Below are positions 7,709 to 26,798 of a DNA stretch of 37,788 nt, piece after piece. The notes beneath the pieces are model-generated. The model was not told where the DNA came from, did no database searches, and saw only the letters and a list, made by a program, of their open reading frames with translations. Source of the DNA: Nocardiopsis alkaliphila YIM 80379 (GTDB lineage: Bacteria > Actinomycetota > Actinomycetes > Streptosporangiales > Streptosporangiaceae); assembly GCF_000341005.1 (NCBI RefSeq), contig NZ_ANBD01000011.1, positions 1,759 through 39,546 on the forward strand. The letters run 5' to 3'. Position 1 is the stretch's first letter; each line of letters opens with the position of its first letter. Position numbers and translations under genes: made by a program.

Positions 7709-7830
7709 CCCAAGGATCGTCGGATCGGGAAAAGACTGGAAATCTTCGGGCAACATCCGTGTCTGGTTCGACGTGGCGCCCCTACGGAAAGCACCATGGC
7801 CGTTCAGGATCGTCGGCAAGGCCGACCCCG

Positions 7831-7868
7831 AAAAGGAGGTGGGCGGGGCGGGGGTAGACACGCCCCGC
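7831..7868 (+). promoter_or_regulatory. Shine-Dalgarno and 8-bp hairpin in the baeRF leader
   Basis: AAAAGGAGGTG (7831-7841), nearly a perfect anti-16S match, lies 35 nt before the ATG at 7875. In between, arms 7843-7850 and 7861-7868 (GCGGGGCG and complement) form an 8-bp stem with a 10-nt loop. Folding would bring the site close to the start codon, or could gate initiation. An in-frame GTG at 7839 is an alternative start but then has no proper ribosome site. Confidence 0.4.
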
Positions 7869-7874
7869 AAATCT

Positions 7875-10724: not shown

Positions 10725-11600
10725 TTACTTGATGCCGGTGGTGGCGATGCCCTTGACGAGGTAGCGCTGACCGGCCAAGAAGAACCCGAACACCGGCCCC
10801 AGGGCCACCACGGACATCGCGAACAGCGGCCCCCAAGAGGTCTGGGAGCTGGAGTCGACGAAGGTGCGCAGCGCCACCGGCACCGTGTACATGTCGGGAC
10901 TGGTCAAGAAGATCAACTGGCTGAAGAAGTCGTTCCAGGTCCAGATGAAGGTGAAGATCGCCGTGGTGGCCAGGGCCGGCATCGACAACGGCAGGGGGAT
11001 GCGACAGAAGATGCGCACGTGCCCGCACCCGTCGATGCGTGCCGCCTCGTCCAGGTCGCGGGGCAGCCCTCGGATGAACTGCACCATCAAGAAGATGAAG
11101 AACCCGTCGGTGGCCAACAACTTGGGGATGATCAGTGGGTAGAAGGTGTTGATCCAGTCCAGCTGCGCGAACAGGATGTACTGGGGCACGATCACCACGT
11201 GGATGGGCAGCATGATCGTGGCGAGCATGATGGCGAAGAACAGTCTCTTGCCGCGAAACTCCAGCCGGGCGAAGGCGTAGGCCGCCATCGAACACCCGAT
11301 GAGGTTGCCGATGATGGCGCCGGCCACCACGATCGCCGAGTTGAGCAGGTAGTGGTGGAAGGGATACTGCAGCGCGTTCCAGCCCTCGGTGTAGTTGCCG
11401 GGGGTGAAGCTCCAGGGGATCAGCCCGGGTTCACGGAAGATCTCCGCGGTGGGTTTGAAGGAGCTGGAGAGCATCCACAGCAACGGGTAGAGCATGATCA
11501 GGCCGAAGCCGATCAGGCCGACGTGGATGAGCAGTCGTCGCGTGCGTTCGGACCGGGTCCGCTCAGTGGTGGAGGCCGGTGCCTTGGTCTCAGTCGCCAT
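10725..11600 (-). CDS. Carbohydrate ABC transporter permease (MalG-like)
   Basis: A 291-aa inner-membrane permease with six predicted TM helices. After a hydrophilic Thr/Arg-rich N-terminus come VGLIGFGLIMLYPLLWML (TM1) and the typical NSAIVVAGAIIGNLIGCSMAAYAFARLEF. The EAA loop, which docks the ATPase, is DEAARIDGCGHVRIFCRIPLPLSMPALA, matching the EAAxxDGA-8x-IxLP pattern with C for A at one position. The C-terminus ends GQRYLVKGIATTGIK, the usual ending in this family. Its ATG overlaps the last 11 bp of the upstream permease gene, so the two are translationally coupled. Confidence 0.95.
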   Translation of the reverse strand: MATETKAPASTTERTRSERTRRLLIHVGLIGFGLIMLYPLLWMLSSSFKPTAEIFREPGLIPWSFTPGNYTEGWNALQYPFHHYLLNSAIVVAGAIIGNLIGCSMAAYAFARLEFRGKRLFFAIMLATIMLPIHVVIVPQYILFAQLDWINTFYPLIIPKLLATDGFFIFLMVQFIRGLPRDLDEAARIDGCGHVRIFCRIPLPLSMPALATTAIFTFIWTWNDFFSQLIFLTSPDMYTVPVALRTFVDSSSQTSWGPLFAMSVVALGPVFGFFLAGQRYLVKGIATTGIK

Positions 11601-12558
11601 AGAAGACCCAGTACTTGGAGGCGAGGAAGTTCACCGCGGTGAATCCCCCGATGATCATCAGGAGCAGCCAGGCCATCGCCGAGGCGTAGCCCATGTCGAA
11701 CGCGCCGAAACCGCGTTGGTAGAGGTAGAGCGTGTAGAAGAGGGTGGAGTCGGAGGGCCCGCCGGTGCCACCGCTGACGATGAACGCCTGAGTGAAGGTC
11801 TGGAAGGCGTTGATGATCTGCAGCACCAGGTTGAAGAAGATGATGGGCGTGAGCATGGGCACCGTGATGTGCCAGAACCGGTGCATCGGACCGGCACCGT
11901 CCACGGCGGCCGCTTCGTAGTACATCCGCGGGATCTGGCGTAGCCCGGCCAGGAAGATGACCATGGGCGCACCGAAGGTCCATACGTTGAGCACGATCAG
12001 GGTGCTCAGGGCGTAGTCGGGGTGGGAGACCCAGCCTGGACCTTGGACCCCGAAGAAGGCCAGGAGCTGGTTGATCAGCCCTTCGGCTCCAAAGACCTGA
12101 CGCCACAGGATGGCGATGGCCACGCTGCCGCCCAGCAGGGAGGGCAGGTAGTACACCGACCTGTACAGCGCCAGGCCCCGCACTCCCCGGTCCAAGACCA
12201 TGGCCAGGGCCAGGGCCAGCGCCAGTTGGAGGGGGACCGAGACGAACACGTAGACGAAGGTGACGCTCAACGCGCTGTGCAAACGGGAGTCGTCGAGCAT
12301 GCGCTCGTAGTTCTCCAGGCCCACCCATTGGTGGTCACCGATGAGGTTGTAGTCGGTGAAGGAGAAGTACAACGAGGCCAGCAGGGGGCCGGCGGTGATG
12401 AAGACCAGGCCCAGGAACCAGGGTGCCAAGAAGCCGTAGGCGGCCAGGTTCTCGCGGCGAGGCCGTCCGTTGCCGCCACCACGGCTCGTGCGGGGCTTGG
12501 GCGGGTCGGTGGGGGAGGAGGCCTTCTGGGGGGCGCGTTGTTGGAGCAGGGCGCTCAC
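11590..12558 (-). CDS. Carbohydrate ABC transporter permease (MalF-like)
   Basis: The GTG at 12558 (322 aa) is chosen because the open frame further upstream begins before the mapped-looking promoter, and because a GGGAG lies upstream. After a charged N-terminus (QQRAPQKASSPTDPPKPRTS), TM1 is AAYGFLAPWFLGLVFITAGP. Six TM helices and the EAA loop YYEAAAVDGAGPMHRFWHITVPMLTP follow, which is a close fit to the MalF/UgpA family. It pairs with the MalG-like subunit to form the membrane channel of a sugar importer. It is the first gene of the operon, preceded by about 190 nt of untranslated leader that contains a LacI-type operator. Confidence 0.95.
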   Translation of the reverse strand: MSALLQQRAPQKASSPTDPPKPRTSRGGGNGRPRRENLAAYGFLAPWFLGLVFITAGPLLASLYFSFTDYNLIGDHQWVGLENYERMLDDSRLHSALSVTFVYVFVSVPLQLALALALAMVLDRGVRGLALYRSVYYLPSLLGGSVAIAILWRQVFGAEGLINQLLAFFGVQGPGWVSHPDYALSTLIVLNVWTFGAPMVIFLAGLRQIPRMYYEAAAVDGAGPMHRFWHITVPMLTPIIFFNLVLQIINAFQTFTQAFIVSGGTGGPSDSTLFYTLYLYQRGFGAFDMGYASAMAWLLLMIIGGFTAVNFLASKYWVFYGD

Positions 12559-12723
12559 GGCGCACCACTCCCGGGACACGCCTCGGTCCGTGTCGGGCAC
12601 GGTCGGGGGCTGATGGGGGTCATGATCGCGGACCACCAATCTGGTCAGGGCGGATGCGGGGAACGTGCCGCCATCCCCGCTGAAGTGGCCGAGAACACTG
12701 GACGAATTCGCAGGTGATGGCTT

Positions 12724-12737
12724 GGTAAGCGCTATCC
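12724..12737. promoter_or_regulatory. LacI-type operator O1 (importer promoter)
   Basis: GGTAAGCGCTATCC is a 14-bp near-palindrome around AGCGCT, with two mismatched symmetric pairs relative to the palindrome. It lies about 12-25 nt downstream of the predicted start site of the importer operon, a roadblock position. Confidence 0.6.
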
Positions 12738-12755
12738 ATAGTTTAAGATGTTCAG

Positions 12756-12784
12756 TTTCTAGCATCGCGCTTCATGGGTGTCAA
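12756..12784 (-). promoter_or_regulatory. Promoter of the sugar importer operon
   Basis: On the minus strand TTGACA (12784-12779), exactly 17 bp, then TAGAAA (12761-12756). Transcription would start near 12749. The -35 box is perfect and this is one of the most consensus-like promoters in the window. Operator O1 lies immediately downstream. Confidence 0.65.
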
Positions 12785-12938: not shown

Positions 12939-12968
12939 TTGTGGTTTGCCTTGGAAAGCGTTTACCCT
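12939..12968 (+). promoter_or_regulatory. Promoter and LacI-type operator O2 of the Gfo/Idh operon
   Basis: TTGTGG (12939-12944), an 18-bp spacer, and TACCCT (12963-12968). The predicted start coincides with the GTG at 12975, so the message is probably leaderless. Operator O2, GGAAAGCGTTTACC at 12953-12966, sits between and over the -35/-10 boxes, so bound repressor would exclude polymerase. Confidence 0.6.
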
Positions 12969-12974
12969 AGCCGC

Positions 12975-14288
12975 GTGAACGACACCTCCCCACGCAGGTT
13001 CGCCATCGTCGGCACCGGGTCCAGGGCACGGATGTACACACGCGCCCTCACCGACACCCATCGGGACCTGGGCCGACTGGTGGCCCTGTGCGACACCAAC
13101 ACCACCCGCATGGCCGTACACAACCGAATCATCACCGAGGCGGGCCTGGACCCCGTCCCCACCTACCCGGCCGAATCCTTCGGTCGCATGCTCCAGGAGC
13201 AAAAGGTGGACGAGGTGATCGTGTGCACCATCGACCACACCCACGCCGACTACGTCGTGGCCGCCTTGGAGGCCGGCGTCGACGCCATCACCGAAAAACC
13301 CCTCACCGCCGACCTGGACGGCCTGCGACGCATCAACGAGGCCCAGACCCGTACCGGCGGCCACGTCACCGTCGGCTTCAACTACCGCTACAACCCCGTC
13401 CACCGCAGGCTGCGCGAACTCATCGCCTCCGGAGCCATCGGCGAAGTCGGCTCGGTCCACTTCGAATGGCTACTGGACCTACGCCATGGCGCCGACTACT
13501 TCCGCCGTTGGCACCGCGACAAGACCCGCTCGGGCGGTCTACTGGTCCACAAGGCGAGCCACCACTTCGACCTGGTCAACTGGTGGATCAACGCCCGCCC
13601 CGAAGAGGTCTACGCCTCGGGGAGACTGTTCTTCTACGGTGCCCAGAACGGACTTCGCCACGGGTCGGCCCGCCCGTACACGCGCGGACACCACTCGCCG
13701 GAGGCCGCCGAGGACCCCTTCGCCCTGCACATGGCCGACAGCCCCGACCTGACCGCCCTATACCTGGAGGCCGAACACGAGGACGGATACCGTCGCGACC
13801 TCAACGTCTTCGGCGAAGGCATCACGATCGAGGACGACATGTCGGTGCTGGTGCGCTATGACACCGGCGCCCGCCTGACCTACCACCTGGTCGCCTACGC
13901 CCCCTGGGAGGGCTACCGGATCTCCATCACCGGAAGCCGAGGGCGACTGGAACTGGACATGACCGAGTTCGAACACACCTCGCCCGCAAAGGACGAGAAG
14001 CACCCGGTACGCGGCATGCCCGCCCCCAAGGAGAACACCACCGCCCGCCTGTGGCTGCGCCGCCACTGGCAACCACCCGAGGAAATCCCCGTCACCGTCG
14101 GCGAGGGCGGACACGGTGGCGGCGACGACGCCATGCTCTGGGCCCTGTTCAGCCGAACCGACGACGGTATCCGCCCCGACCACTCAGATGGCGGCAACGC
14201 CCTGATCACCGGCCTGTGCGCCAACGCCTCGATCGCCTCCGGACGCCCCGTCCGGGTCGCCGAACTACTGGGGGAGGAGCCGCGGTGA
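12975..14288 (+). CDS. Gfo/Idh/MocA-family oxidoreductase (first of three)
   Basis: A 437-aa NAD(P)-dependent oxidoreductase. The GTG at 12975 is chosen because it places the Rossmann motif IVGTGSRAR (residues 11-19) close to the N-terminus and because a promoter ends just upstream. The family signature EKPLT is at 107-111, and the substrate-domain motif ASHHFDLVNWW around residues 193-203 carries the conserved His and Asp. By family knowledge these enzymes oxidise a sugar or cyclitol hydroxyl, often at C3, or reduce the ketone. The protein is longer than the usual 330-390 aa. It is the first gene of an operon coupled to the next Gfo/Idh by a GTGA overlap, and operator O2 covers the promoter. 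The substrate is unknown. Confidence 0.9.
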   Translation: MNDTSPRRFAIVGTGSRARMYTRALTDTHRDLGRLVALCDTNTTRMAVHNRIITEAGLDPVPTYPAESFGRMLQEQKVDEVIVCTIDHTHADYVVAALEAGVDAITEKPLTADLDGLRRINEAQTRTGGHVTVGFNYRYNPVHRRLRELIASGAIGEVGSVHFEWLLDLRHGADYFRRWHRDKTRSGGLLVHKASHHFDLVNWWINARPEEVYASGRLFFYGAQNGLRHGSARPYTRGHHSPEAAEDPFALHMADSPDLTALYLEAEHEDGYRRDLNVFGEGITIEDDMSVLVRYDTGARLTYHLVAYAPWEGYRISITGSRGRLELDMTEFEHTSPAKDEKHPVRGMPAPKENTTARLWLRRHWQPPEEIPVTVGEGGHGGGDDAMLWALFSRTDDGIRPDHSDGGNALITGLCANASIASGRPVRVAELLGEEPR

Positions 14289-15463
14289 ACCCTCGCCCGC
14301 TACCCGAAGGGCCCGTGCCCCTCCTCCTGGTGGGCCTGCACGGGCACGGGCGCTCCCACCTGCGCGCCCTGCTCCCCATGGCCGAACGAGGGCTGGTGCG
14401 CCTGGTCGGGGTATGCGATCCCCGCCCTCCCGGCCCCGACGACGACCTGGAGGGCCACGGCCCCCTGCCCTATTTCGACGACCTCGACCGAGCCCTCCAA
14501 CGGACCGGGGCACACATCACCCTCCTGGTCACCCCCATCCACACCCACCTTCCTTTGGCTCGCACGGTGCTCGAGCACGGTTCCCACCTGCTCCTGGAAA
14601 AACCCACCACCGCCACCCTGGCCGAACTCGACGAACTCACCAACGCCGTGCGGGACTCCGGCCTGGCCTGCCAGGTGGGTTTCCAGAGCCTGGGCTCGAG
14701 CGCCATCGAACACATCCGAAAGCTGTTGGCGCACAAGACGATAGGCGCCCTGCGCGGCATCGGCGGCACCGGAACGTGGAAACGCACCCTCGCCTACTAC
14801 GAGCGCGCCCCCTGGGCCGGGCGACGCCGTCTGGCCGGCCGCGACGTGGTCGACGGCGCCCTGACCAACCCCTTCGCGCACATGGTCGCCACCGCCCTGG
14901 CCATCGCCGACGGAGGTCGCCACGCCCCACACCGGATCGAACCGGAACTGTTCCACGCCCACCCCATCGAAGCCGACGACACCTCCTGTCTACGCCTGCA
15001 CACCCACCAGGGCGTCCCCGTGTGCTCGGCGGTGACCCTGTGCGCCCCCCGGAGCCTGCCGCCCACCCTGCACCTGCACTGCGAACACGCACGCATCACC
15101 TTCGACTACACCCTGGACCGTGTCACCGTGCACCGCCCCGGCCAGGCCCCGCACACCACCACCCACCAGCGCACCCACCTGCTGGACGACCTCATCGCCC
15201 ATTTGCGCCACGGCCGGCCGCTGCTCGTTCCCCCAGCCGCCACCTTGGGCTTCACCCACGTGCTGGAAGCCGTGCGCACCGCACCCGACCCCAAACCCAT
15301 CCCCGCCGAACACCAGGACGTGTGGCGCGAGGCCGGCACCACCCACCGCACCGTCCACGGCATCGTCCCCCTCATCCGACGCAGCGCCGAACAGATGGCC
15401 ACGTTCACCGAACTGGGCGCGCCCTGGGCCACGCCCACCCGCCCATTGGAGGCCCGCCCATGA
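14285..15463 (+). CDS. Gfo/Idh/MocA-family oxidoreductase (second of three)
   Basis: A 392-aa protein beginning GTG at 14285, overlapping the previous stop (GTGA). The Rossmann region is degenerate: LLLVGLHGHGRSHL (13-26) keeps G17, G20 and G22. EKPTT at 105-109 is intact. The downstream domain has FAHMVATALAIAD where other members have HxxD, and it is rich in Thr, Pro and His. This may be a cofactor-binding variant or a divergent partner of the first enzyme. It overlaps the DUF6807 gene by ATGA, so the three are tightly coupled. The pairing of a Gfo/Idh enzyme with a DUF6807 protein is often seen in bacterial sugar loci. Substrate unknown. Confidence 0.88.
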   Translation: MNPRPLPEGPVPLLLVGLHGHGRSHLRALLPMAERGLVRLVGVCDPRPPGPDDDLEGHGPLPYFDDLDRALQRTGAHITLLVTPIHTHLPLARTVLEHGSHLLLEKPTTATLAELDELTNAVRDSGLACQVGFQSLGSSAIEHIRKLLAHKTIGALRGIGGTGTWKRTLAYYERAPWAGRRRLAGRDVVDGALTNPFAHMVATALAIADGGRHAPHRIEPELFHAHPIEADDTSCLRLHTHQGVPVCSAVTLCAPRSLPPTLHLHCEHARITFDYTLDRVTVHRPGQAPHTTTHQRTHLLDDLIAHLRHGRPLLVPPAATLGFTHVLEAVRTAPDPKPIPAEHQDVWREAGTTHRTVHGIVPLIRRSAEQMATFTELGAPWATPTRPLEARP

Positions 15464-16299
15464 ACCTGTCCCTGTCCGGCACCGTCGTGGCCACGCACCA
15501 GGACGGCACCGACCTGGACCCCTTGTGGTCCCCCCGCCCCTTCCTGCACCCGGTGACCACCCTGGCCGGCACCACCGTCACCGAACTCGCCCCCGCCGAC
15601 CACCGCCACCACCTGGGCTTCGGTGTGGCACTACCCGACGTGTCGGGCACCAGCTTCTGGGGTGGACGCACCTTCACCCGTGAGCACGGATCGGTACTGC
15701 TGGACAACCACGGACGCCAACGACACCTGCGCACCCTGGCGCAGGGGCCCGACCACCACACCGCACTACTGTCGTGGACCGACCCCCGAGAACGAGAACT
15801 CATCGTCGAGGAACGCGCCCTGCGCGCCCTGCCCCTGGATCACCGCACCTGGGTCCTGGACGTGCGCATCACCCTGCGCAACACCTCGGACCAGGATCTG
15901 AGCATCGGCAGCCCCGCCACCAACGGTCGCCCCGGCGCGGGCTATGGCGGACTGTTCTGGCGTGCCCCGCTGGGCCCACGCCCACCGGCCGTCACCGGAC
16001 CCGACGGGCTACGAGGAGAACAGGTCCTGCACGGAGCGTCGGTGCCCTGGTTGTCCCTGGCCGGCACCACCGACCAAGACGCCCCCTGGACCCTGCTGCT
16101 GCACCAACTCACCCCCGACCCCGACCCCTGGTTCCTGCGCGCGGCTCAATACCCCGGCACGGGGCCGGCCCTGGCCTGGGACCGGCGCCGCCCCCTGCCC
16201 AGGCAGACGACCCTTCGACGCCGCCTTCGGATCGCCATCGCCGACGGGCACCAAGATGATCACCCCGCGCTGGCCGACGCGGTGGCCGCCTTGACCTGA
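15460..16299 (+). CDS. DUF6807 family protein (annotated elsewhere as 'PmoA')
   Basis: A 279-aa protein starting MNLSLSGTVVATHQDG. Recognisable family marks are the PRPFLHPVTTLAGTTVTEL strand region, DHRHHLGFGVALPDVSGTSFWGGRTF (several His that could bind metal or substrate), and a C-terminal beta-rich part with NGRPGAGYGGLFWRAP. It is predicted cytoplasmic and beta-sandwich-like. The common database name 'methane oxygenase PmoA' is misleading, as there is no link to methane monooxygenase. Function is unknown. DUF6807 genes typically sit beside Gfo/Idh oxidoreductases, as here (ATGA overlap), so a role with an oxidised sugar is likely. Confidence 0.82.
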   Translation: MNLSLSGTVVATHQDGTDLDPLWSPRPFLHPVTTLAGTTVTELAPADHRHHLGFGVALPDVSGTSFWGGRTFTREHGSVLLDNHGRQRHLRTLAQGPDHHTALLSWTDPRERELIVEERALRALPLDHRTWVLDVRITLRNTSDQDLSIGSPATNGRPGAGYGGLFWRAPLGPRPPAVTGPDGLRGEQVLHGASVPWLSLAGTTDQDAPWTLLLHQLTPDPDPWFLRAAQYPGTGPALAWDRRRPLPRQTTLRRRLRIAIADGHQDDHPALADAVAALT

Positions 16300-16412
16300 G
16301 GACCCGCCCCGGCCCGCCCCCGAAGACACGCCCCCACCTTCCACGGTGTGGCTCCACCCGCCTGCTTCGACAACGCCCCGGGACCACCCGGAGACCGGAA
16401 AGGAAACCCGCC

Positions 16413-17303
16413 ATGCGCGTGCTCGTCACCGGAGGCTCGGGACGCCTGGGACGCAGTGTGCTCTCGATCCTGGCCGACCGCGGGCACCAGGTCACCTCGG
16501 TCGACATCGCCCCCACCACCCCACCCGCAGGGGTCAGCGCGCTCACCGCCGATCTGCTGGACTCCACCGCCCTCCAAGAGGCCTTCGCCCACGCCGCACC
16601 CGAGGCCGTCATCCACCTGGCCGGGATCGCCGTACCCTTCGCCCGCCCCGACGTGGAGACCCTCCAGGTCAACACCGGCCTGGCCTGGGCGGTGCTCGCA
16701 GCCGCCATCGAACACCGGGCCCACTCGGCCGTGGCCGCCTCCAGCCCCACCGTCTACGGCTACAACACCCCCTCTTGGGTCCCCGACTACCTGCCCCTGG
16801 ACGAAGAACACCCGATCCGACCCTGGCACGCCTACGGGCTCAGCAAAGCCATCATCGAACAGACCGTCCAAGCATTGGCCCGCACCACCGATACCTGCGT
16901 ACTCTCGGCCCTGCGCCCCGGATACGTCGTGGCCCCCGAGGAATGGGCTGGCGCCCCCACCCAACAGGGCCACACCCTGGCCGAGCGCCTGGCCGACCCC
17001 GCCCTGGCCGCGACCTCCCTGTTCAACTACGTCGACGCGCGCGACGCCGCCGAACTGTTCGCCCTGGTGATCGAACACCCCGAACGGGTCCACCACGGAG
17101 GGATCTACAACGCCGTGGCCGACGACCCCCTGGCCCACGGACCGGTCGACGCCACCATGGCACGCCTACACCCGACCACCGCCCCGCACAGTACGGCCTT
17201 GGCCGACGGCCGCGCGGTCTTCTCCAACGAACGCGCCCGCACCGAACTGGGCTGGACCCCCACCCGAACCTGGCGTACCCAGCTCGAAGGCCGGATCGGT
17301 TAG
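16413..17303 (+). CDS. NAD-dependent epimerase/dehydratase-type SDR, possible uronate dehydrogenase
   Basis: A 296-aa extended short-chain dehydrogenase. The ATG at 16413 has a strong AAAGGAAA upstream. TGGSGRLG (6-13) is the GxxGxxG nucleotide loop, VDIAP (30-34) the NAD-preferring acidic turn, HLAGIAVP (68-75) the third conserved segment, SSPTVYG (110-116) the catalytic Ser/Thr strand, and Y141-G-L-S-K145 the catalytic pair. Extended SDRs of this size include UDP-sugar epimerases and hexuronate dehydrogenase. A uronate dehydrogenase would fit the aldarate dehydratase and KdgD in the convergent operon, but this is inference from context. It lies 113 bp after the DUF6807 gene with its own ribosome site and is probably in the same transcript. 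Confidence 0.85.
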   Translation: MRVLVTGGSGRLGRSVLSILADRGHQVTSVDIAPTTPPAGVSALTADLLDSTALQEAFAHAAPEAVIHLAGIAVPFARPDVETLQVNTGLAWAVLAAAIEHRAHSAVAASSPTVYGYNTPSWVPDYLPLDEEHPIRPWHAYGLSKAIIEQTVQALARTTDTCVLSALRPGYVVAPEEWAGAPTQQGHTLAERLADPALAATSLFNYVDARDAAELFALVIEHPERVHHGGIYNAVADDPLAHGPVDATMARLHPTTAPHSTALADGRAVFSNERARTELGWTPTRTWRTQLEGRIG

Positions 17304-17362
17304 TGCCCTTCCAACGACCGAACCCACAAAGCACCGGCCACCCCAACCGGTCCGCTAACCTG

Positions 17363-17376
17363 GGAAAGAGTTTTCC
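17363..17376. promoter_or_regulatory. LacI-type operator O3 (autoregulation)
   Basis: GGAAAGAGTTTTCC lies 28 bp before the GTG of the LacI-family gene. It matches the other sites except at the centre. Its place suggests that the regulator controls its own synthesis. Confidence 0.55.
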
Positions 17377-17404
17377 AAGACAGAGCGGCAGAAGGGCCCC
17401 AGGG

Positions 17405-18436
17405 GTGAGTTCGGCTTACGTGACACTGGAACAGGTGGCCCAACACGCGGGCGTCTCCCTGGCCACCGCCTCCCGGGTGATCAACGGCAGTACACGCCAG
17501 GTCAGCCAACGCCTGAGCGACAAGGTCAAGGCCAGCGCCCAAGAACTGGGCTACCTGGCCAACGCCTCCGCCCAGACCCTGGCTCGCAACAGCAGTTCCC
17601 TGGTGGGACTCCTCGTCCACGACATCGCCGACCCCTACTTCTCCTCCATCGCCCGAGGTATCACCCGCCACACCGAGGAACAAGGTCTGGTCACCGTCCT
17701 GGGCACCACCTACCGCTCCGCCCAAAAGGAGAGCACCATCCTGGCGGCCCTGCGCGCCCACCGTGCCAAGGCCATCGTCTTGGTCGGCTCCCGTTCCACC
17801 GACGAGGACAGCAACACCACTCTGGTCCGTGAGATCGAAGCCTTCCAACAGCAGGGCGGACGCGTGGCGTGCGTGTCCCAACCCGGCCTGCCCGCCGACA
17901 CCGTCAGCCCCGACAACCACGCCGGGGCCACCGAACTGGCCCGCCACCTCATCGCCCAAGGGCACCGCAGGTTCGCCATCCTGGCCGGCCCCACCAACCT
18001 GAGCACCGCCCGCGAACGCCTGGACGGTTTCCACTCGGCGCTCTCGGCCGCCGGTCTGGAACTGCAACACCACAACATCGTGCACGGCGACTTCACCCGT
18101 GACGGCGGATACGAGTCGACCCAGCGCCTCCTACGCCTGGGCAGCGACGCCACCTGCCTGTTCGCGGTCAACGACGTCATGGCCACCGGGGCCATGGCCG
18201 CCCTGCGTGAAGCCGGCATCCGGGTACCCGAGGAGCTATCGGTGGCCGGATTCGACGACATCCCCACCCTGCGCGACCTCACCCCCTCCCTGACCACCGT
18301 GCGCCTGCCCCTGGAACAGATGGGCGAACACGCCGCACAAATGGCCCTGGACCACGAACACGAAGGCGAGTTCCGTACCGTCCACGTCCAAGGCGAGATC
18401 CTGATACGCGAAAGCACCCGCCCGCCCGCTCTCTGA
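17405..18436 (+). CDS. LacI-family transcriptional regulator of the sugar locus
   Basis: A 343-aa LacI-type repressor. The GTG at 17405 follows GAAGGGCCCC. A second in-frame GTG at 17420 is a possible start. The HTH is VTLEQVAQHAGVSLATASRV (6-25), followed by the hinge segment QVSQRLSDKVKASAQELGYL with ANASAQTLA. The effector domain has LVGLLVHDIADPYFSSI, GHRRFAILAGP, ATCLFAVNDVMATGAM and VAGFDDIP, all typical of LacI/GalR members that bind a sugar or sugar derivative in the periplasmic-binding fold. It most likely represses the importer and both catabolic operons through GGAAAGCGCTTTCC-like sites until an intermediate is bound. The gene ends at a bidirectional terminator. Confidence 0.95.
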   Translation: MSSAYVTLEQVAQHAGVSLATASRVINGSTRQVSQRLSDKVKASAQELGYLANASAQTLARNSSSLVGLLVHDIADPYFSSIARGITRHTEEQGLVTVLGTTYRSAQKESTILAALRAHRAKAIVLVGSRSTDEDSNTTLVREIEAFQQQGGRVACVSQPGLPADTVSPDNHAGATELARHLIAQGHRRFAILAGPTNLSTARERLDGFHSALSAAGLELQHHNIVHGDFTRDGGYESTQRLLRLGSDATCLFAVNDVMATGAMAALREAGIRVPEELSVAGFDDIPTLRDLTPSLTTVRLPLEQMGEHAAQMALDHEHEGEFRTVHVQGEILIRESTRPPAL

Positions 18437-18445
18437 AGCGGCCAA

Positions 18446-18483
18446 GGGGCGGCGGCGAGGTTGTGACACCCCGCCGCCGCCCC
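18446..18483. terminator. Bidirectional hairpin terminator
   Basis: Perfect 12-bp GC stem (arms 18446-18457 and 18472-18483, GGGGCGGCGGCG and complement) with a 14-nt loop, placed between the convergent LacI and enolase-superfamily genes. There is no T-tract. Confidence 0.8.
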
Positions 18484-18488
18484 GTTCC

Positions 18489-19577
18489 CTATCTCCCGTG
18501 CCAGGGGAGTGGGGTCAGATCATCGGCGAAGGAGAGCCCGTGCCCGGGACCGGTTCCGGCCCGCAGCCACCCTCGCTCGATCCGCACCCCGCTGGGGTCG
18601 GCCAAGGCCCCCAGCGCTTCGAAGGAGGCGTGGTCGATGTCCTCGACCATCGCCACCCGGGGCAGGCACAACGCCAACTGCCCCGACAACTCCGGCAACA
18701 GGTGCGGAGCCACCGGCACCCCACGCCGCGCCATCACCTCGGCGATCCGCAAGAACGGAGTGATCCCGCCGACCCGCACCACGTTGGGCTGGGCCACGTC
18801 GCACACCCCGGCCTCGACGAACCTTTCGAACTCCTCCACGGTGCGCAGGTTCTCACCCAACGCGAAGGGCAGGCGGGTGCGGCCTCGCAGCCGCTCGTGC
18901 GCGGCCAGGTCCTGGGCCGGCAACGGCTCCTCCACCGAGTGCACCCCGTACTCGTCCAACCGATCCAGGGCCTCAGCGGCGGTGGGGACGTCCCAACGCT
19001 GGTTGGCGTCCACCATCAACGAACGCTCCTCACCCAGCACACGGCGTACCGCACCGACTCGTTCGACGTCACGGCCCACCTCGGCCGAACCCACCTTGAT
19101 CTTGACGGTCCGGTGCCCGGCCTCGACCCACGAGCTCACCTGCTCGGTCAGGTCCTCCACCGGGTAGTCGAGGTTGACCCCGCTACCGTAGGCGGCGACC
19201 CGATCCCGGCGCCGTCCCAGCAGATCCACCAAAGGCAGCCCCGCGGCCTTGGCCCGCACGTCCCACAAGGCGATGTCCACACCGGCCAAAGCCATCAGGG
19301 TCAACCCGGTGGTGCCCGCCTCACGCAGATACCAACGCAGCTCCTCCCACCGGGACGGGTGGGCCGCACCGCCCACCAACACCGGGGCCAGGTCGGCGTT
19401 GACCAGTGACTCCACCGCGCCCGCCCCGATCAATGGGGTCCAGGAGAATCCGGTCCCCACCACACCGGCGTCGGTGCGAAGGCGCACCACCACGATGTCG
19501 TTGCGGTCCACCCCGCCGTCCCAGGCCCGTCGCAACGGCAATCGGAAGGCGCGGGCCACCACCTCGACCACACGCAC
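18489..19577 (-). CDS. Enolase-superfamily (mandelate racemase/muconate lactonising) sugar-acid dehydratase
   Basis: A 362-aa enolase-superfamily enzyme. The capping domain comes first (1-125), then the barrel: K159-I-K161 (the KxK catalytic lysines), metal ligands D190 (VDAN), E216 (EEP) and E242 (GEN), D260 (CDVAQPN) and H292 (PHLLPE). All magnesium ligands and both acid/base groups are present, so it should be active. Dehydration of an acid sugar or racemisation fits best. Next to KdgD, an aldarate (glucarate/galactarate-type) dehydratase is the simplest inference. Exact substrate is unclear: this group is not assignable by motif alone. It is the last gene of the five-gene operon, 4 bp after KdgD. 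Confidence 0.9.
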   Translation of the reverse strand: MRVVEVVARAFRLPLRRAWDGGVDRNDIVVVRLRTDAGVVGTGFSWTPLIGAGAVESLVNADLAPVLVGGAAHPSRWEELRWYLREAGTTGLTLMALAGVDIALWDVRAKAAGLPLVDLLGRRRDRVAAYGSGVNLDYPVEDLTEQVSSWVEAGHRTVKIKVGSAEVGRDVERVGAVRRVLGEERSLMVDANQRWDVPTAAEALDRLDEYGVHSVEEPLPAQDLAAHERLRGRTRLPFALGENLRTVEEFERFVEAGVCDVAQPNVVRVGGITPFLRIAEVMARRGVPVAPHLLPELSGQLALCLPRVAMVEDIDHASFEALGALADPSGVRIERGWLRAGTGPGHGLSFADDLTPLPWHGR

Positions 19578-19581
19578 CGCC

Positions 19582-20487
19582 TCAGCCCTTCCCCGCCAGG
19601 GACAACCCCGCCTCGATCAACGACGCCAGCTCGGCCTCCTCCGCCGAGGTCAGGTCGACGAAGGGAGCACGCACCGGCCCCACCTCCACCCCTCGCGACC
19701 GGGCACCGGCCTTGACCAACGCCACCGCGTACCCGGGGGAGCGATCCCGCAACCGCACCAGCGGATCGTAGAACTCGGCCAGGAGCCGTCCGGCCAACGG
19801 ATCGCAGGTGTGGAAGGCCTTGTAGAAGGCGTCGGCCACCTCGGGAACGAACGCGAAGGCCGCCGAGGAGTACAACGGCACCCCGATCCCGGTGTAGGCC
19901 GCAGCGGTCAACTCGGCCGTGGGCAGCCCGTTGAAGAAGGTGAAGTCCTCACCCCGCACCGCCCGCACCGCCAACACGATCTGCTGCATCAACCCCAGAT
20001 CGCCGACCCCGTCCTTGATCCCCACCACCTGCGGCAGTGCCGCCAAGGCGGCGGCCGATTCGGGGGAGAGCACCATGGTGCCGCGCTGATAGACGATGAT
20101 GGGGATCTCCACCGCCGCGGCCACCGCCCTGACGTAGGCCACCAGGCCCCGCTGGGGCGCGGAGACCAGATAGGGCGGCAACAACAAGATGGCGTCCGCG
20201 CCCAACTCACGCGCGGCCCGAGCCTGCTCGATGGCCGTGCCCACACTGCCACCGGCACCCGCCACCACGGGGACCGCACCGTCGACCACCTCGACCGAAC
20301 GGCGCACCACCGCGGCGTGCTCGACCGCCGACAGGGCGTGGATCTCCCCGGTACCGCAGGCGGCGAACACCCCGCCCGCCCCGTGGGCCACACCCGAGGC
20401 CACATGCGCGGCCAAAGCCTCCTCGTTCACCGCTCCGTTCTCACCGAAGGGTGTGAGGGGAAAGAAGAGGATCCCGTCGAACTGCAT
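19582..20487 (-). CDS. kdgD: 5-dehydro-4-deoxyglucarate dehydratase
   Basis: The ATG at 20487 (301 aa) is used, not the earlier one at 20517, because AAGGAGAAGG lies directly upstream and because family members begin MxFDGxLFFPLTPF. It is a DapA-family aldolase fold. CGTGEIH (44-50) is the GTGE segment specific to KdgD-type enzymes, Y133 (VYQRG) is the conserved tyrosine, and K158 (GIKDGVGD) is the Schiff-base lysine. The C-terminal RAPFVDLTSAEEAELASLI is characteristic. The enzyme decarboxylates and dehydrates 5-dehydro-4-deoxy-D-glucarate to 2-oxoglutarate semialdehyde, a step of the oxidative uronate/aldarate pathway in the cytoplasm. The product's dehydrogenase is not in this window. Confidence 0.9.
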   Translation of the reverse strand: MQFDGILFFPLTPFGENGAVNEEALAAHVASGVAHGAGGVFAACGTGEIHALSAVEHAAVVRRSVEVVDGAVPVVAGAGGSVGTAIEQARAARELGADAILLLPPYLVSAPQRGLVAYVRAVAAAVEIPIIVYQRGTMVLSPESAAALAALPQVVGIKDGVGDLGLMQQIVLAVRAVRGEDFTFFNGLPTAELTAAAYTGIGVPLYSSAAFAFVPEVADAFYKAFHTCDPLAGRLLAEFYDPLVRLRDRSPGYAVALVKAGARSRGVEVGPVRAPFVDLTSAEEAELASLIEAGLSLAGKG

Positions 20488-20510
20488 CTGCCTTCTCCTT
20501 GTCTCAGGGG

Positions 20511-20541
20511 ACGCCACGGGTCATGGGGTTCCGCGTGGCGT
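20511..20541. promoter_or_regulatory. Intercistronic hairpin before kdgD
   Basis: Arms ACGCCACG (20511-20518) and CGTGGCGT (20534-20541), 8 bp, 15-nt loop, in the 89-bp gap between the isomerase and kdgD. It could stabilise the downstream mRNA or set expression levels within the operon. This gap is the only sizeable one in the operon. Confidence 0.4.
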
Positions 20542-20576
20542 GGGGCCGCCGAGGCGACCGGATGGATCCGAAGGAT

Positions 20577-21470
20577 TCAAAGGACGTGTTGGAGGTGCCG
20601 GCGGACCATGGTGGCGATGACGTCGTCACCGTCTGAGGCCCACACCCGGGCGTTGAACACCTCCCACTCGACGTCGCCCTGGTAACCGGCCTCGCGCACC
20701 GCCCGGTACAGGGAACGCACGTCGATGTGGCCATCACCGACCATGCCCCGGCCCAGCAGGGAGTCCTCGGGCAACGGCAGGACCCAGTCACAGACCTGAA
20801 AGGAGGCGATGCGCCCGCGCGGCCCCGCCCAAGCGATGTGCTCGTACACCGCCGGGTCCCACCACACGTGGTAGGTGTCCACCACCACCCCCACCTGAGC
20901 GGCGGGGAAGGGATCGGCCCATTCCAGGGCCTGACCCAGGGTCGCCAACACCGCACGGTCGGCGCAGAACATCGGATGGAGCGGTTCCAGGCCCAGTCGG
21001 ACTCCACGCTCGGCGGCGTAGGGCACCAGTTCATGGAGGGCCTCGGCCACCCGCTCACGGGCACCGACCAGGTCACGGTCCCCCTCGGGTAGACCGCCCA
21101 CCACCATGACCAGGACCGGAGCGCCCAACTCGGCGGCCTCGTCCAGGGCGCGACGGTTGTCCTCCAAGGACGCGGCCCGATCGGTGCCGGTGAGGAATCC
21201 GCCCCGACAGTAGGTGGAGACCCGCAAACCCGAGTCCCGCAGCAACCTGGCCGAAGCGGCGAGCCCGGCCTCGGCCACGTGTTCACGCCAGGGCCCGATG
21301 GCGGGCACACCGGCCCGCAGGCAGCCCTCCACCGCCTGGCGCAGGCTCCAGTACTTGGTGGTGGCCTGGTTCAGCGACAGCCTGGACAAGACCGGATCCC
21401 CTGGGGCGGGGGTGGGTACGGTGGCCCGCAGACCGGAGGGCACGTCCACGTCGATGGGTGGCGTGGTCAC
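20577..21470 (-). CDS. Sugar phosphate isomerase/epimerase-family TIM-barrel protein
   Basis: A 297-aa protein of the AP-endonuclease-2/xylose-isomerase-like TIM barrel. Likely metal ligands are E162 (LGLEPLHP), D198 and H201 (VVDTYHVWW), Q225 (ASFQVCDW), and E270 (VEWEVFNA), which match the usual E/D/H(Q)/E set. Family members isomerise ketoses, and several act as metal-dependent lyases on 3-keto-glycosides produced by Gfo/Idh enzymes. In this setting, with Gfo/Idh two genes upstream, a beta-elimination or epimerisation step is an attractive inference, but no substrate can be stated. It overlaps the DUF993 gene by ATGA, so the two proteins are probably made together. Confidence 0.87.
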   Translation of the reverse strand: MTTPPIDVDVPSGLRATVPTPAPGDPVLSRLSLNQATTKYWSLRQAVEGCLRAGVPAIGPWREHVAEAGLAASARLLRDSGLRVSTYCRGGFLTGTDRAASLEDNRRALDEAAELGAPVLVMVVGGLPEGDRDLVGARERVAEALHELVPYAAERGVRLGLEPLHPMFCADRAVLATLGQALEWADPFPAAQVGVVVDTYHVWWDPAVYEHIAWAGPRGRIASFQVCDWVLPLPEDSLLGRGMVGDGHIDVRSLYRAVREAGYQGDVEWEVFNARVWASDGDDVIATMVRRHLQHVL

Positions 21471-22627
21471 TGCCGCACCCCCGAAACACGCAACAGGGAG
21501 CGCATACGCTCGGCGGCCAGATCGGGCTCGCTCAACGCTCCGGCGGCGTCGGCCGAACGCAGGACCTGAGCCAGGTGCGGCAGGGAACGCGCGCTGTGCA
21601 GACCACCGACCATGTGGAAACCCTTCTGGTGACCGTTGAGCCAGGCCAGGAAGGTGATACCCGTCTTGTAGTAGAAGGTGGGCGCCGAGAACAGGTGCCG
21701 GGCCAGCGGCACGGTGGCGTCCATCAGCCTCCGGTAACGGGCGATGTCTTTCTCGTCCAAGGCCGCCAGGGCGCGTGCGGCCACCGGGGCGATGGCGGCG
21801 AAGATCCCGAGCAGTGCGTCGGAGTGTCCGTGTGCGTCGCCTTGAATGAGCTCGGGGTAGTGGAAGTCGTCACCGGTGTACAGACGTACCCCGTCCGGAA
21901 GCAGGCGGCGCAGACGCACCTCCAAGGCGGCGTCCAACAGCGATACCTTGATACCCTCCACCCGGTCGGCGTGATCGGTGATCAACGCGGCCACCGGTTC
22001 GATCGCCTCGGCCGGGTCAGCGTACCCCCAGTAACCGGCCAGGGCGGGATCGAAGGCCGCGCCCAACCAGTGCAGGATCACCGGACGCTCGGCCCGTTCC
22101 AACAGGGTCGAGTAGACCTTGACGTAGTCCTCGGGACCTTGGGCCAGGGAGGCCAGGACACGCGAGGCCATCAGGACGGGGGTGGCCCCGGCGCCCTGGA
22201 CGGTGTCGAGTTGTTCCACGTAGGCATGGACAACGCTTTCCAAAGTGGCCTGCGCGGGTTCCAGCTGATCGGTGCCCACACCGCAGGCCAGAGCCGCCCC
22301 GCGACCGGTGGCCTCGGCACCCGAGCGACGGATCAGTTCGGCGGTGGCCGGCCAATCCAACCCCATGCCGCGCTGGGCGGTGTCCATGGCGTCGGCCACA
22401 CCCAATCCTTGGTCCCACAGGTGGTGGCGAAAGGCCAGAGTGGCCTCCCAGTCCAGCCGGGCCGGTTCACCGGGGGCGTTGGTCGCGGTGGGGTCGGCGA
22501 CCACGTGAGCGGCGGCGTAGGCCACCCGGTCGCGCGCAGGAGGCGAAGGAGCCACCTGAGCACGAGGGCCGGTGAGAGTGAAGGGGGCCAGGTCGCCCTC
22601 GGGGGTGGGCAGCAGCAAGGGCTTCAT
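21467..22627 (-). CDS. DUF993 protein (dihydrodipicolinate-synthase-like barrel)
   Basis: A 386-aa DUF993 family member. Visible features: an N-terminal segment with VAYAAAHVVAD, a barrel with HLWDQGLGVADAMDTAQRG, ERPVILHWLG (His), and VEGIKVSLLD, whose lysine sits where DapA-family aldolases form the Schiff base. The C-terminal FHMVGGLHSARSLPHL is conserved in the family. Databases often call it dihydrodipicolinate synthase family protein, but the biochemical role is unknown to me. The Gfo/Idh - DUF993 - isomerase order recurs in actinobacteria (family knowledge), so an aldol cleavage of a keto-sugar is a reasonable guess. ATGA overlaps on both sides make it part of a tightly coupled trio. 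It contains a LacI-like site inside the gene at 22228-22241. Confidence 0.83.
   Translation of the reverse strand: MKPLLLPTPEGDLAPFTLTGPRAQVAPSPPARDRVAYAAAHVVADPTATNAPGEPARLDWEATLAFRHHLWDQGLGVADAMDTAQRGMGLDWPATAELIRRSGAEATGRGAALACGVGTDQLEPAQATLESVVHAYVEQLDTVQGAGATPVLMASRVLASLAQGPEDYVKVYSTLLERAERPVILHWLGAAFDPALAGYWGYADPAEAIEPVAALITDHADRVEGIKVSLLDAALEVRLRRLLPDGVRLYTGDDFHYPELIQGDAHGHSDALLGIFAAIAPVAARALAALDEKDIARYRRLMDATVPLARHLFSAPTFYYKTGITFLAWLNGHQKGFHMVGGLHSARSLPHLAQVLRSADAAGALSEPDLAAERMRSLLRVSGVRQ
22228..22241. promoter_or_regulatory. Intragenic LacI-like site
   Basis: On the minus strand GGAAAGCGTTGTCC differs from GGAAAGCGCTTTCC at two positions. It lies inside the DUF993 coding sequence, where a bound repressor could act as a roadblock or as an auxiliary looping site. 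It may also be chance. Confidence 0.3.
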
Positions 22628-23778
22628 CGGGCCGCCACCTCACCCAGCTCGATGGTGCGGCCGGTACGGGCCGAGTCCAGGCCGGCCTCGGCCATCTGGA
22701 TACCGCGCGCCCCTGAGAACAGGTCGTGGGGAAAGTCGGTGCCCAGCACCACGTGACGCAAGAACGCCTCCCACTGGGAGCGGAAACCGTTGGGGAAGTC
22801 GGTGTTGTCCGGGACGCTCTGCCACTGGCCGCGGTAGCCGACCGTATCGACGGTGTCGGGGTCCCAGGCCGCTTTGGGGGTGGTGGTCCGGTGCTGGACA
22901 CGGCAATGGCGCAGGCCCGCCACGGCACTGCCGTGGGTGCCGTCCACCTGGAACTCCACCAGTTCGTCGCGGTCCACGCGCACGCTCCAAGAGGAGTTGA
23001 TCTGCGCGATGGTGCCGTCGGCCAATTCGAAGATGCCGTAGGCGGCGTCGTCGGCGGTGGCCTCGTAGCGTTCACCCCTTTCGTCCCAGCGCCGAGGGAT
23101 GTGGGTGGCGGTACGAGCGGTGACGGTGCGCACCGGGCCGAACAGATGCTCCAGGACGTAGTGCCAGTGCGGGAACATGTCCAGCACGATGCCGCCGCCC
23201 TCTTCGGCTCGGTAGTTCCAGCTGGGCCGCTGGGCGCTCTGCCAGTCGCCCTCGAAGACCCAGTAACCGAACTCCCCGCGCACAGAAAGGATCTTTCCGA
23301 AGAAGCCACTGTCCACGAGCCTGCGGAGTTTGAGCAGGCCGGGCAGGAAGAGCTTGTCCTGGACCACACCATGGCGCACCCCCGCCTGTTCGGCGAGCTT
23401 GGCCAACTCCAGCGCGGCCTCCAGGGTGTCCGCGGTGGGCTTTTCGACGTAGACGTGCTTGCCCGCGGCGATGGCCGAGCGCACGGCCGCTTCACGTGCG
23501 TGGGTGATCTGGGCGTCGAAGTAGATGGAGACGCTCTCATCGCCGAGCACCGAATCCAGGTCGGTGGACCAGCGTTCGATGTCGTGACGCCGGGCGATCT
23601 CACGCAACTTGTGTTCGGAGCGTCCCACCAGGACGGGTTCGGGAATGAGGCGGGCACCGTCGGCCAGTTCCAGGCCACCGGCGTCGCGGATCGCCAGGAT
23701 CGAGCGGGTCAGGTGTTGCCGGTATCCCATCCGGCCGGTGACGCCGTTCATTGCGACGCCCAGAACGTGCTCTGTCAT
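22624..23778 (-). CDS. Gfo/Idh/MocA-family oxidoreductase (third of three), operon leader
   Basis: The ATG at 23778 (384 aa) is preceded by GGAGAGG and then by operator O4; the longer frame would start within the promoter region. The N-terminus is unusual: GVAMNGVTGRMGYRQHL (7-23) has a dihydrodipicolinate-reductase-like GVTGRMG loop instead of the usual GxGxxG. EKPTAD is at 112-117, and the substrate domain has GGGIVLDMFPHWHYVLEHLFG with the DxxxH pair. The C-terminus is ordinary for the family. It should oxidise or reduce a sugar derivative with NAD(P). It overlaps DUF993 by ATGA and is the first gene of the five-gene operon. Probably it supplies a keto-sugar for the next two proteins. Confidence 0.9.
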   Translation of the reverse strand: MTEHVLGVAMNGVTGRMGYRQHLTRSILAIRDAGGLELADGARLIPEPVLVGRSEHKLREIARRHDIERWSTDLDSVLGDESVSIYFDAQITHAREAAVRSAIAAGKHVYVEKPTADTLEAALELAKLAEQAGVRHGVVQDKLFLPGLLKLRRLVDSGFFGKILSVRGEFGYWVFEGDWQSAQRPSWNYRAEEGGGIVLDMFPHWHYVLEHLFGPVRTVTARTATHIPRRWDERGERYEATADDAAYGIFELADGTIAQINSSWSVRVDRDELVEFQVDGTHGSAVAGLRHCRVQHRTTTPKAAWDPDTVDTVGYRGQWQSVPDNTDFPNGFRSQWEAFLRHVVLGTDFPHDLFSGARGIQMAEAGLDSARTGRTIELGEVAAR

Positions 23779-23799: not shown

Positions 23800-23823
23800 T
23801 GAAAGCGCTTTCCAGAGCGTACG
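23800..23823 (-). promoter_or_regulatory. LacI-type operator O4 with the five-gene operon's -10 region
   Basis: TGAAAGCGCTTTCC (23800-23813) contains the perfect 12-bp palindrome GAAAGCGCTTTC and is the best site of the set. On the minus strand TACGCT (23823-23818) just upstream could be the -10 box, putting the transcription start inside the operator. The -35 region (TGGTGC, 17 bp further) is poor. It lies 22 bp before the Gfo/Idh start. Confidence 0.7.
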
Positions 23824-24337
23824 CCAAACACGACGATCGCACCAGACCCATCCCGTGTTCGGTCGCCCCGAAGGCGGGGCCACACCGCGTCGAGCGGCGA
23901 GAACGCGCACCCGAAGGCAGACCCTCGAGCCCCCGAGCGAGGTCTACGCACCCGAGGCCGAGCAAACGATTGCCGAAGTTCCTCGAGCTCGTTCAGCTCC
24001 CACGCCTTGAAGCGACCACCGCCCCAGAGCTCGGAGGTTCTTCCTGTGGACCCTTCCCCAACTGCGAGAACAGGGCGCTTCCGACCATTCGGGGGTTCTT
24101 CTCGGCGCCGGGTCGATGTGGACACGAGGGGGGGCACGACCTCATGCGAATGGAAAGCGTTTGCATGAACAGGAGGCGCCCCACCGCACGGTTGAGGCCT
24201 CCCTGTTGGCACACCTACCGCACCCGCGCGCCGAACGAGTGTGATCGAGTCGTTGTGGTCGCGCCTGGTCCGACCTTGGAGTGCATCGCTCCAAGATCAG
24301 GACACCACCGGCCCTTACCCATCGCCCCCGGTCGAGG
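23824..24337. other. Long leader-side intergenic region, no supported gene
   Basis: About 510 bases between the start of the five-gene operon and the end of the exonuclease gene. Frames crossing it are short or unlike known proteins. Apart from operator-like site O5 at 24152-24165 and its flanking arms, I see no clear promoter, terminator or RNA gene. Confidence 0.6.
24142..24168. promoter_or_regulatory. Distal LacI-type operator O5 within a larger palindrome
   Basis: GGAAAGCGTTTGCA (24152-24165) matches the local operator type and is flanked by TCATGC (24142-24147) and GCATGA (24163-24168). It lies about 340-350 bp upstream of O4, a spacing that would allow DNA looping between two repressor dimers. 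No gene start is close by on either strand. Confidence 0.5.
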
Positions 24338-25835: not shown

Positions 25836-25857
25836 AAAGTTAGGCGTGCCGAACTTT
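25834..25857 (+). promoter_or_regulatory. DtxR-family-like operator spanning the start codon of the metal importer
   Basis: At 25836-25857 the sequence is palindromic at 18 of 22 positions: AAAGTT, one base, GGC, two bases, GCC, one base, AACTTT. The core TTAGGC-GCCGAA is the kind of box bound by DtxR/MntR regulators. TAAAAG at 25834-25839 is a likely -10, which puts the transcript start at the GTG (25846) in the middle of the palindrome. Bound regulator would cover promoter and start codon together. Confidence 0.7.
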
Positions 25858-26787: not shown

Positions 26788-26798
26788 GGAGGAACACC

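Follow-up and report, generated by a model that had tools for sequence, protein, structure and literature searches.

A probable LacI-controlled regulon for uronate catabolism in Nocardiopsis alkaliphila contains a conserved Gfo/Idh, DUF993 and AP_endonuc_2 barrel trio

Introduction

Two described catabolic systems come closest to the locus examined here. In the oxidative uronate pathway of Agrobacterium and Pseudomonas, as outlined in the available excerpts of one report (PMC6353982), Udh produces galactarolactone, Gci or galactarate dehydratase yields 2-keto-3-deoxygalactarate, and a dehydratase/decarboxylase (KdgD) forms 2-ketoglutarate semialdehyde (KGSA), on which a dehydrogenase then acts. 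The levoglucosan pathway (LgdA, LgdB1, LgdB2, and LgdC) of Bacillus smithii and Paenarthrobacter, as far as excerpts of two reports describe it (PMC7676230, PMC10066097), combines Gfo/Idh dehydrogenases, PF01261 barrels, and an ABC importer, and proceeds by oxidation, elimination, hydration, and reduction. Here we analyze a stretch of 37,788 nucleotides from Nocardiopsis alkaliphila YIM 80379 (contig NZ_ANBD01000011.1; hereafter the window), in which an ABC importer adjoins genes for three Gfo/Idh proteins, a DUF6807 protein, a DUF993 protein, and an AP_endonuc_2 barrel (APe). We propose that LacI controls this locus as a single regulon for the catabolism of plant sugars that contain uronate, most likely pectin oligogalacturonides or galacturonate, a reading to which we assign a probability of about 0.6.

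A preliminary description of positions 12975 to 23778 had named these six genes, proposed an undescribed oxidation–elimination pathway for a substrate left open, and suggested that the Gfo/Idh–DUF993–isomerase trio and the Gfo/Idh–DUF6807 pair be sought elsewhere. Pfam matches place all six genes where it had put them, and a conserved multigene core of uncharacterized steps does exist; the oxidation–elimination chemistry and the roles of the two DUF families are still conjectural. Four further genes within the same coordinates, encoding an SDR, a LacI-family regulator, an enolase-superfamily enzyme (MLE), and a KdgD-like protein, had been overlooked. Because SDR, MLE, and KdgD, together with the neighbors of some related loci (pectate lyase, UxaA/B/C, and a KGSA-type dehydrogenase), suggest galacturonate or glucuronate, the substrate need no longer be left wholly open.

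Results

Ten genes are arranged in two convergent halves

The region comprises ten genes. On the plus strand, from left to right, are Gfo1 (12975–14288; 437 amino acids, GTG start; GFO_IDH_MocA, E 3e-18 for a longer open reading frame, ORF), Gfo2 (14285–15463; 392 amino acids; GFO_IDH_MocA, E 9.4e-13, also for a longer ORF), DUF6807 (15460–16299; PF14100, E 3.5e-59), the SDR, a weak candidate for a uronate dehydrogenase (16413–17303; Epimerase, E 2.8e-31), and the LacI-family regulator (17405–18436; Peripla_BP_3, E 1.2e-34, and LacI HTH, E 5.3e-12, within ORF 16346–18436), for which starts at 17405 and 17420 are both compatible with the reading frame. The minus strand carries, again from left to right, MLE, an acid-sugar dehydratase or galactarolactone cycloisomerase by family (18489–19577; MR_MLE_C, E 5.2e-57), the KdgD-like 5-dehydro-4-deoxyglucarate dehydratase/decarboxylase (19582–20517), APe, which is xylose-isomerase-like (20577–21470; PF01261, E 6.2e-35), DUF993 (21467–22627; PF06187, E 9.7e-180), and Gfo3 (22624–23778; GFO_IDH_MocA_C3, E 1.9e-26 for a longer ORF). 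By these coordinates, 4-base overlaps join Gfo1 to Gfo2, Gfo2 to DUF6807, APe to DUF993, and DUF993 to Gfo3, and the outer positions 12975 and 23778 are likely the starts of Gfo1 and Gfo3. As the preliminary description had stated, kinases and glycoside hydrolases are absent, in that no such Pfam match occurs among the 30 window ORFs scanned, which are part of all ORFs in the window.

The importer lies on the left side, on the minus strand. It consists of a solute-binding protein (9150–10463; SBP_bac_8, E 8.4e-27), permease A (10725–11600; BPD_transp_1, E 1.6e-21), and permease B (PermB, 11590–12765; BPD_transp_1, E 8.4e-14), whose true start may be later. Relatives of the solute-binding protein with at least 40% identity lie within 10 kb of DUF993 in six of the related loci described below (L080, L086, L088, L100, L170, and L189). 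Outside the locus are an ORF bearing a bacterial archaeo-eukaryotic release factor family 2 domain (7482–9005) and an adjoining Zn/Mn-type ABC importer (ZnuA, ATPase, and ABC-3 permease; 25846–28429).

The Gfo3–DUF993–APe trio is conserved across several phyla

We assembled 140 DUF993 loci (numbered with the prefix L), which represent 138 distinct places since L102 equals L167 and L106 equals L152; each ends at about 10 kb from DUF993 or at a contig end. Eighty named loci, the best 80 of 590 confirmed matches and skewed toward close relatives of the query, came from a one-genome-per-species scan with a 17-sequence DUF993 alignment (A1), from which L047 was excluded because the chosen range contained stops. 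The others were picked by hand: 27 places from 26 of the 54 matching genomes in the order of R. nepotum plus one Geomicrobium place, 12 of the 28 other matching genomes from a search of the phylum, and 20 of the 133 matching family genomes. A second alignment (A2) joined the window sequence to 24 of 120 listed matches. Locus counts are from tblastn; simple ORF calling was noisy in GC-rich loci.

In 117 of the 140 loci, from several phyla, DUF993 has both Gfo3 and APe at a distance of no more than 600 bases: 74/80 named loci, 14/28 from the R. nepotum order and Geomicrobium, 11/12 from elsewhere in the phylum, and 18/20 from the family. Hosts include Streptomyces, Arthrobacter, Paenibacillus, Thermosporothrix, Rhizobium, and a Gemmatimonadetes metagenome-assembled genome (MAG), and the closest named DUF993 proteins are from Nocardiopsis. 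The Gfo/Idh–DUF6807 pair recurs as well: of the 140 loci, 10 have Gfo2 and 13 have DUF6807 near DUF993 (within 10 kb, at least 38% identity). DUF993 itself occurs in 133/200 genomes of the family, 29/396 of the phylum, 54/199 of the rhizobial order, and 0/14 control genomes; among 72,556 plasmid records, 147 also carry relatives, and Sinorhizobium accounts for 65 of these.

Some loci differ in composition. In Mesorhizobium locus L106 (2497–9008), which lacks the trio, Pfam matches place DUF993 with an ABC importer, an aldehyde dehydrogenase (ALDH), an enoyl-CoA hydratase, a CoA-transferase, a Gfo protein, and LacI. Seven other rhizobial loci without adjacent Gfo3 and APe (L150, L158, L160–L163, and L166) resemble it by tblastn; the Pfam content given here was read in L106. 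Given this context, DUF993 may serve more than one role. Elsewhere (L136, L139, L148, and L190), genes for DUF2264 and for a 2-hydroxyacid dehydrogenase appear repeatedly in the vicinity of the trio.

Structures have been solved for relatives of every trio member, namely 4dnh for DUF993, 3ju2, 3qc0, and 7vpf for APe, and 3oqb for Gfo3. Each entry bears a generic name (oxidoreductase, sugar isomerase, or xylose isomerase) or the label "uncharacterized"; that of 7vpf is "Xylose isomerase," and 7VPF was not found in the literature searched. Neither was the term DUF993, although that literature omits most subscription papers and a published function is thus not excluded, and DUF6807 turned up there solely as a number. 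According to an excerpt of PMC5342196, two beta-galactosidase genes, an enolase-superfamily gene, and an ORF of family PF14100 possibly form one operon. In Sinorhizobium meliloti, SMc04130 (3ju2) and SMc04132 (4dnh) are relatives of APe and DUF993, a likeness for which sequences were compared for the PDB chains and the other SMc04130–39 genes were taken by annotation. The part of PMC12542648 that covers them calls SMc04132 uncharacterized and annotates SMc04133 and SMc04138/39 as oxidoreductases and SMc04135 as solute-binding.

DUF993 resembles lysine-dependent barrels in fold

The DUF993 protein (386 amino acids) has the predicted (beta/alpha)8 fold of the DHDPS/NAL superfamily (KdgD, DapA, and NAL), and its K227, on predicted strand 223–229 (taken as strand 6), is invariant in the 17-sequence alignment and kept in 95% or more of a set of 131 sequences. 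It differs from that superfamily in its low identity (13–18%), its length, and its separate Pfam family. The TGE sequence that we take to be the carboxylate-binding motif of the superfamily has no conserved counterpart in the 17 aligned sequences. Profile comparison gave no significant alignment between DUF993 and KdgD, and their relation therefore rests on fold. DUF6807 is predicted to adopt a supersandwich fold like that of the galactose mutarotase superfamily and has no sequence match in the PDB up to E 1.

APe scores 121.5 bits against PF01261 (cut-off 31.1) and matches 7vpf (3e-95) and 3qc0 and 3ju2 (2e-70). The full set of metal ligands previously ascribed to this barrel holds in part: among the positions that we presume to be ligands, E162, D198, and E270 are identical in 128/128 sequences, and the fourth is Q225 rather than histidine (Q in 96, H in 32). 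The best NCBIfam match of APe, 5-keto-L-gluconate epimerase IolO, is far under its cut-off (38.5/300 bits). The assumption that elimination by such barrels is metal-dependent does not agree with the levoglucosan system, where product formation by the eliminase LgdB1 was the same with or without Mn2+, while Mn2+ strongly boosted the hydration reaction of LgdB2 (in the excerpted portion of PMC7676230).

The unusual nucleotide-binding loops first noted in two of the Gfo/Idh proteins are borne out. The Gfo3 loop (MNGVTGRMG) is a trait of the ortholog group, with G12, T14, G15, R16, M17, and G18 each kept in 95% or more of the 122 sequences aligned, and Gfo2 carries the degenerate loop GLHGHGRSH. 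The closest structure to Gfo3 is 3oqb (E 1.1e-147); its weak NCBIfam matches are led by levoglucosan dehydrogenase and then IolG (55.8/355 bits). Gfo1 has conserved EKP and HK..HHFD motifs (n = 14), and a conservation run for Gfo2 (n = 11) gave few columns and was not used. Identification of Gfo1 and Gfo3 as levoglucosan dehydrogenases (NF052479) was rejected, their scores being 54 and 62.1 bits against a cut-off of 650; this check covered those two proteins, the frame of Gfo2 being outside the NCBIfam scan.

SDR, MLE, and KdgD resemble an oxidative uronate module

KdgD scores 395.5 bits against PRK03620 (above cut-off) and 298.1 against TIGR03249 (below its 373.95). It is closest to 2-keto-3-deoxygalactarate dehydratase (4ur7, E 1.4e-60), and T56-G57-E58, Y143, and K168 are each kept in 95% or more of 18 sequences; we take K168 to be the Schiff-base lysine and TGE to be the KdgD-type motif. 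MLE belongs to the enolase superfamily, as does Gci. Its closest PDB matches are 2og9 (7.8e-52) and the L-talarate/galactarate dehydratase 2pp0 (1.1e-50), and its best NCBIfam match is talarate/galactarate dehydratase (229.5 bits, cut-off 500). Presumed acid/base and metal residues are preserved, K159, K161, D190, E216, and E242 in 14/14 sequences and H292 in 12/14. The SDR retains Y141 and K145 in at least 95% of 16 sequences; its best PDB match, 4id9, has no named function, and uronate dehydrogenases match more weakly (E 8e-9 to 8e-7). The host genome (5.2 Mb in 212 contigs, including the window) also encodes, on another contig, a KGSA-type ALDH 55% identical to an operon-borne ALDH of L094. 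As judged from these families, the four proteins probably provide a downstream route for presumed uronate substrates, in which the SDR would convert a uronate to an aldarolactone, MLE would open or dehydrate the lactone, KdgD would form 2-ketoglutarate semialdehyde, and the unlinked ALDH would yield 2-ketoglutarate.

Within 10 kb of DUF993, KdgD or MLE (at least 45% identity) is encoded in 17/140 loci, the SDR (at least 44%) in 15/140, and the ALDH (at least 45%) in 5/140. In L170, tblastn places the importer, Gfo1, Gfo3, DUF993, APe, SDR, KdgD, MLE, and ALDH in one run, with DUF6807–Gfo2–LacI on the opposite side, and L173 and L188 are similar. The Geomicrobium locus L102 has Gfo3–DUF993–APe–Gfo–Gfo followed by UxaA-, UxaB-, and UxaC-family genes, which represent the isomerase route for the same uronates. 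Its UxaB family is spread over two overlapping ORFs and its UxaC ORF spans positions 3–313 of a 464-position profile, possibly owing to gene breaks or sequence errors. Weak matches to UxaA (37%) in L100 and to UxaC (26%) and SDR (32%) in L168 were also seen.

Predicted LacI-type operators precede both halves of the locus

The window contains five matches to the pattern TGGAAAGCGYTTNC when up to one mismatch is allowed, compared with an expected 0.03; this count is descriptive because the pattern was picked after the sites had been seen. Two sites lie in the divergent Gfo1/PermB region. One matches without mismatch (GGAAAGCGTTTACC, 12953–12966, plus strand, before Gfo1) and is identical at Gfo1/PermB of L061, L063, and L198, and the other has one mismatch (12724–12737, minus strand, within the first codons of PermB as called) and recurs with the same sequence in L061, L063, L198, and L189. 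The pattern scan also found two plus-strand sites upstream of Gfo3, TGAAAGCGCTTTCC directly before the gene (23800–23813) and another farther out (24151–24164). The fifth is an operator-like sequence with one mismatch inside the DUF993 coding region (22229–22242), present also in L060 and L061. A looser pattern gave 11 matches against 3.58 expected, several of them one palindrome counted on both strands, and includes the variant GGAAAGAGTTTTCC before LacI (17363–17376, plus strand), which is identical in L061, L063, L064, L182, L184, and L198.

Since the motif was known from the window before it was counted, independent support comes from the relatives. Among 23 chosen loci, for which expectation was set by ten mononucleotide shuffles each, 20 have operator sites, and in 19 a site lies within 450 bp before Gfo3. 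These predicted sites make it very probable that both operons are under shared LacI regulation.

Beyond the site at 24151–24164, the window has no recognized gene that this site might regulate. In the N. listeri MAG locus L060, a like site is located between Gfo3 and a divergent pectate lyase gene, and the corresponding place in L061 (N. listeri NBRC 13360) retains short stretches, two in number, of a decayed pectate lyase. No pectate lyase gene adjoins Gfo3 in the window, though the operator-like site is retained.

Some related loci and the host genome point to pectin

In L094, L186, and L195, the cluster includes or ends with a gene for a pectate lyase that carries a signal sequence, as judged by eye, and the lyase gene divergent from Gfo3 in L060 is of the same kind; in L186 the lyase comes after KdgD, and no MLE was found between them. 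Lyases of family PL1 lie within 10 kb in 4/17 loci with KdgD or MLE versus 1/123 others (Fisher p 7e-4, uncorrected for kinship). In the survey of lyase ORFs, a match had to span more than 60% of the reference, and frames interrupted by stops were discarded. Two PL1 matches occur in the host genome, and GH28, GH88/105, PL22, and KduI have none there. Thus, none of these four families offers a recognized route for pectate lyase products in this genome. Candidates for closing the gap are the Gfo/DUF993/APe/DUF6807 set and also GH4, KduD, and KdgK, families outside the search.

Discussion

Gene content, the conservation of the trio, predicted folds, operator-like sites at both operons, and uronate or pectin neighbors in some relatives are established and lead us to favor a single regulon for uronate sugars. 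Several observations weigh against this reading. A uronate gene (KdgD or MLE at 45% identity or more, UxaA at 35% or more, or UxaC at 25% or more) lies within 10 kb in just 21/140 DUF993 loci, leaving 119 with none; the KdgD/MLE set is mostly confined to Nocardiopsis and its family; and the neighbors of L067 form an NMT1-type importer. The substrate of the trio therefore need not be a galacturonide. The regulatory evidence is also uneven, in that L094, L168, and L188 have no operator within one mismatch, L170 has operators at Gfo2/PermB and none before Gfo3, and the pattern was chosen after the fact. Compared with the oxidative uronate pathway, the SDR is not clearly a Udh, being nearer to 4id9, and neither a lactonase nor an isomerase was recognized. 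At the genome level, DUF993 is associated with PL1 (odds ratio 7.3 in 200 family genomes, kinship uncorrected), but so is the GH10 xylanase control with DUF993 (4.9). The PL1 odds ratio is 4.2 in GH10-positive and 7.8 in GH10-negative genomes. Because the control is associated too, we regard this link as weak and in part a reflection of a plant-polymer lifestyle.

From this evidence we infer the substrate, the order of steps, and the mechanism as follows. The importer would take up a uronide, which the three Gfo/Idh proteins, DUF993, APe, and DUF6807 would turn into free galacturonate or glucuronate. A ring hydroxyl would be oxidized to a ketone, the molecule would be cleaved beside that ketone with the conserved DUF993 lysine acting as a Schiff base, and hydration or isomerization by the barrel and a reduction would follow. 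This is the likeliest chemistry, yet on balance it is less probable than not. A bolder and rather unlikely version makes DUF993 a new class of lysine (Schiff-base) enzyme that cleaves keto-glycosides, or cleaves keto-uronides by a retro-aldol reaction, supplied by Gfo/Idh proteins. The locus shares its proposed logic with the levoglucosan pathway, but it has one barrel rather than two, adds DUF993 and DUF6807, and lies in a uronate rather than a glucose context. In comparison with the oxidative uronate pathway, it has an SDR, an enolase-superfamily enzyme, and KdgD in common, with the KGSA-type ALDH elsewhere in the genome, and differs by the six-protein set that would feed them.

The lysine barrel could instead belong to a different uronate route. 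The trio might process the unsaturated or 4-deoxy-5-keto uronate released by pectate lyase, replacing KduI, KduD, and KdgK, with APe as isomerase, Gfo3 reducing or oxidizing, and DUF993 as aldolase or dehydratase, while saturated galacturonate passes through SDR, MLE, and KdgD. Pectate lyases in or beside the cluster of some relatives, a host genome without a KduI match, and a DUF993 fold that is also that of pyruvate aldolases and 2-keto-3-deoxy dehydratases all fit this arrangement. Yet PL1 is nearly absent near loci without KdgD or MLE, the TGE motif retained by KdgD is missing from DUF993, and 7/31 Nocardiopsis genomes have a KduI-family match, so that the families are not strictly exclusive; the KduI family also includes IolB. 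On balance we consider this account unlikely, though it is the strongest competitor. Somewhat less probable still is that the trio degrades a cyclitol or another non-uronate sugar and is co-regulated with uronate genes since plant matter supplies both. Gfo3 would then be an inositol-type dehydrogenase, APe an IolE/IolO-like enzyme, and DUF993 a C–C cleaving enzyme, as the faint IolO and IolG matches and the many DUF993 loci without uronate genes would allow. The operators common to the trio and the uronate module and full-set runs such as L170 speak against it. The scanned neighbor proteins named no inositol genes, but no dedicated search was made, and the Gfo and AP-barrel families cannot exclude them.

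The same operators bear on whether there is one locus at all. Convergent transcription, and the occurrence of the trio without the remaining genes in many loci, would suit two unrelated clusters lying side by side, Gfo1–Gfo2–DUF6807–SDR and Gfo3–DUF993–APe–KdgD–MLE. Operators precede both halves and are conserved in relatives, however, and the genes are co-located in rearranged order in other genera (L086, L088, L094, L170, and L188), which renders chance adjacency very improbable.

The proposed regulon for uronate sugars narrows the substrate class from any sugar to uronates and pectin, and loci with full gene sets have been identified. The trio core is kept across several phyla, has solved relatives, and has no function found in the searches made, which makes it directly testable. 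If oxidation–elimination is correct, uronide linkages would be broken without a hydrolase, and DUF993 and DUF6807 would gain functions. Under the bolder and rather unlikely version, DUF993 and the barrel would take the place of glycoside hydrolases and Kdu enzymes, so that pectin fragments and related plant sugars would be degraded without phosphorylation, and such a route would span Actinomycetota, Bacillota, Chloroflexota, and rhizobia.

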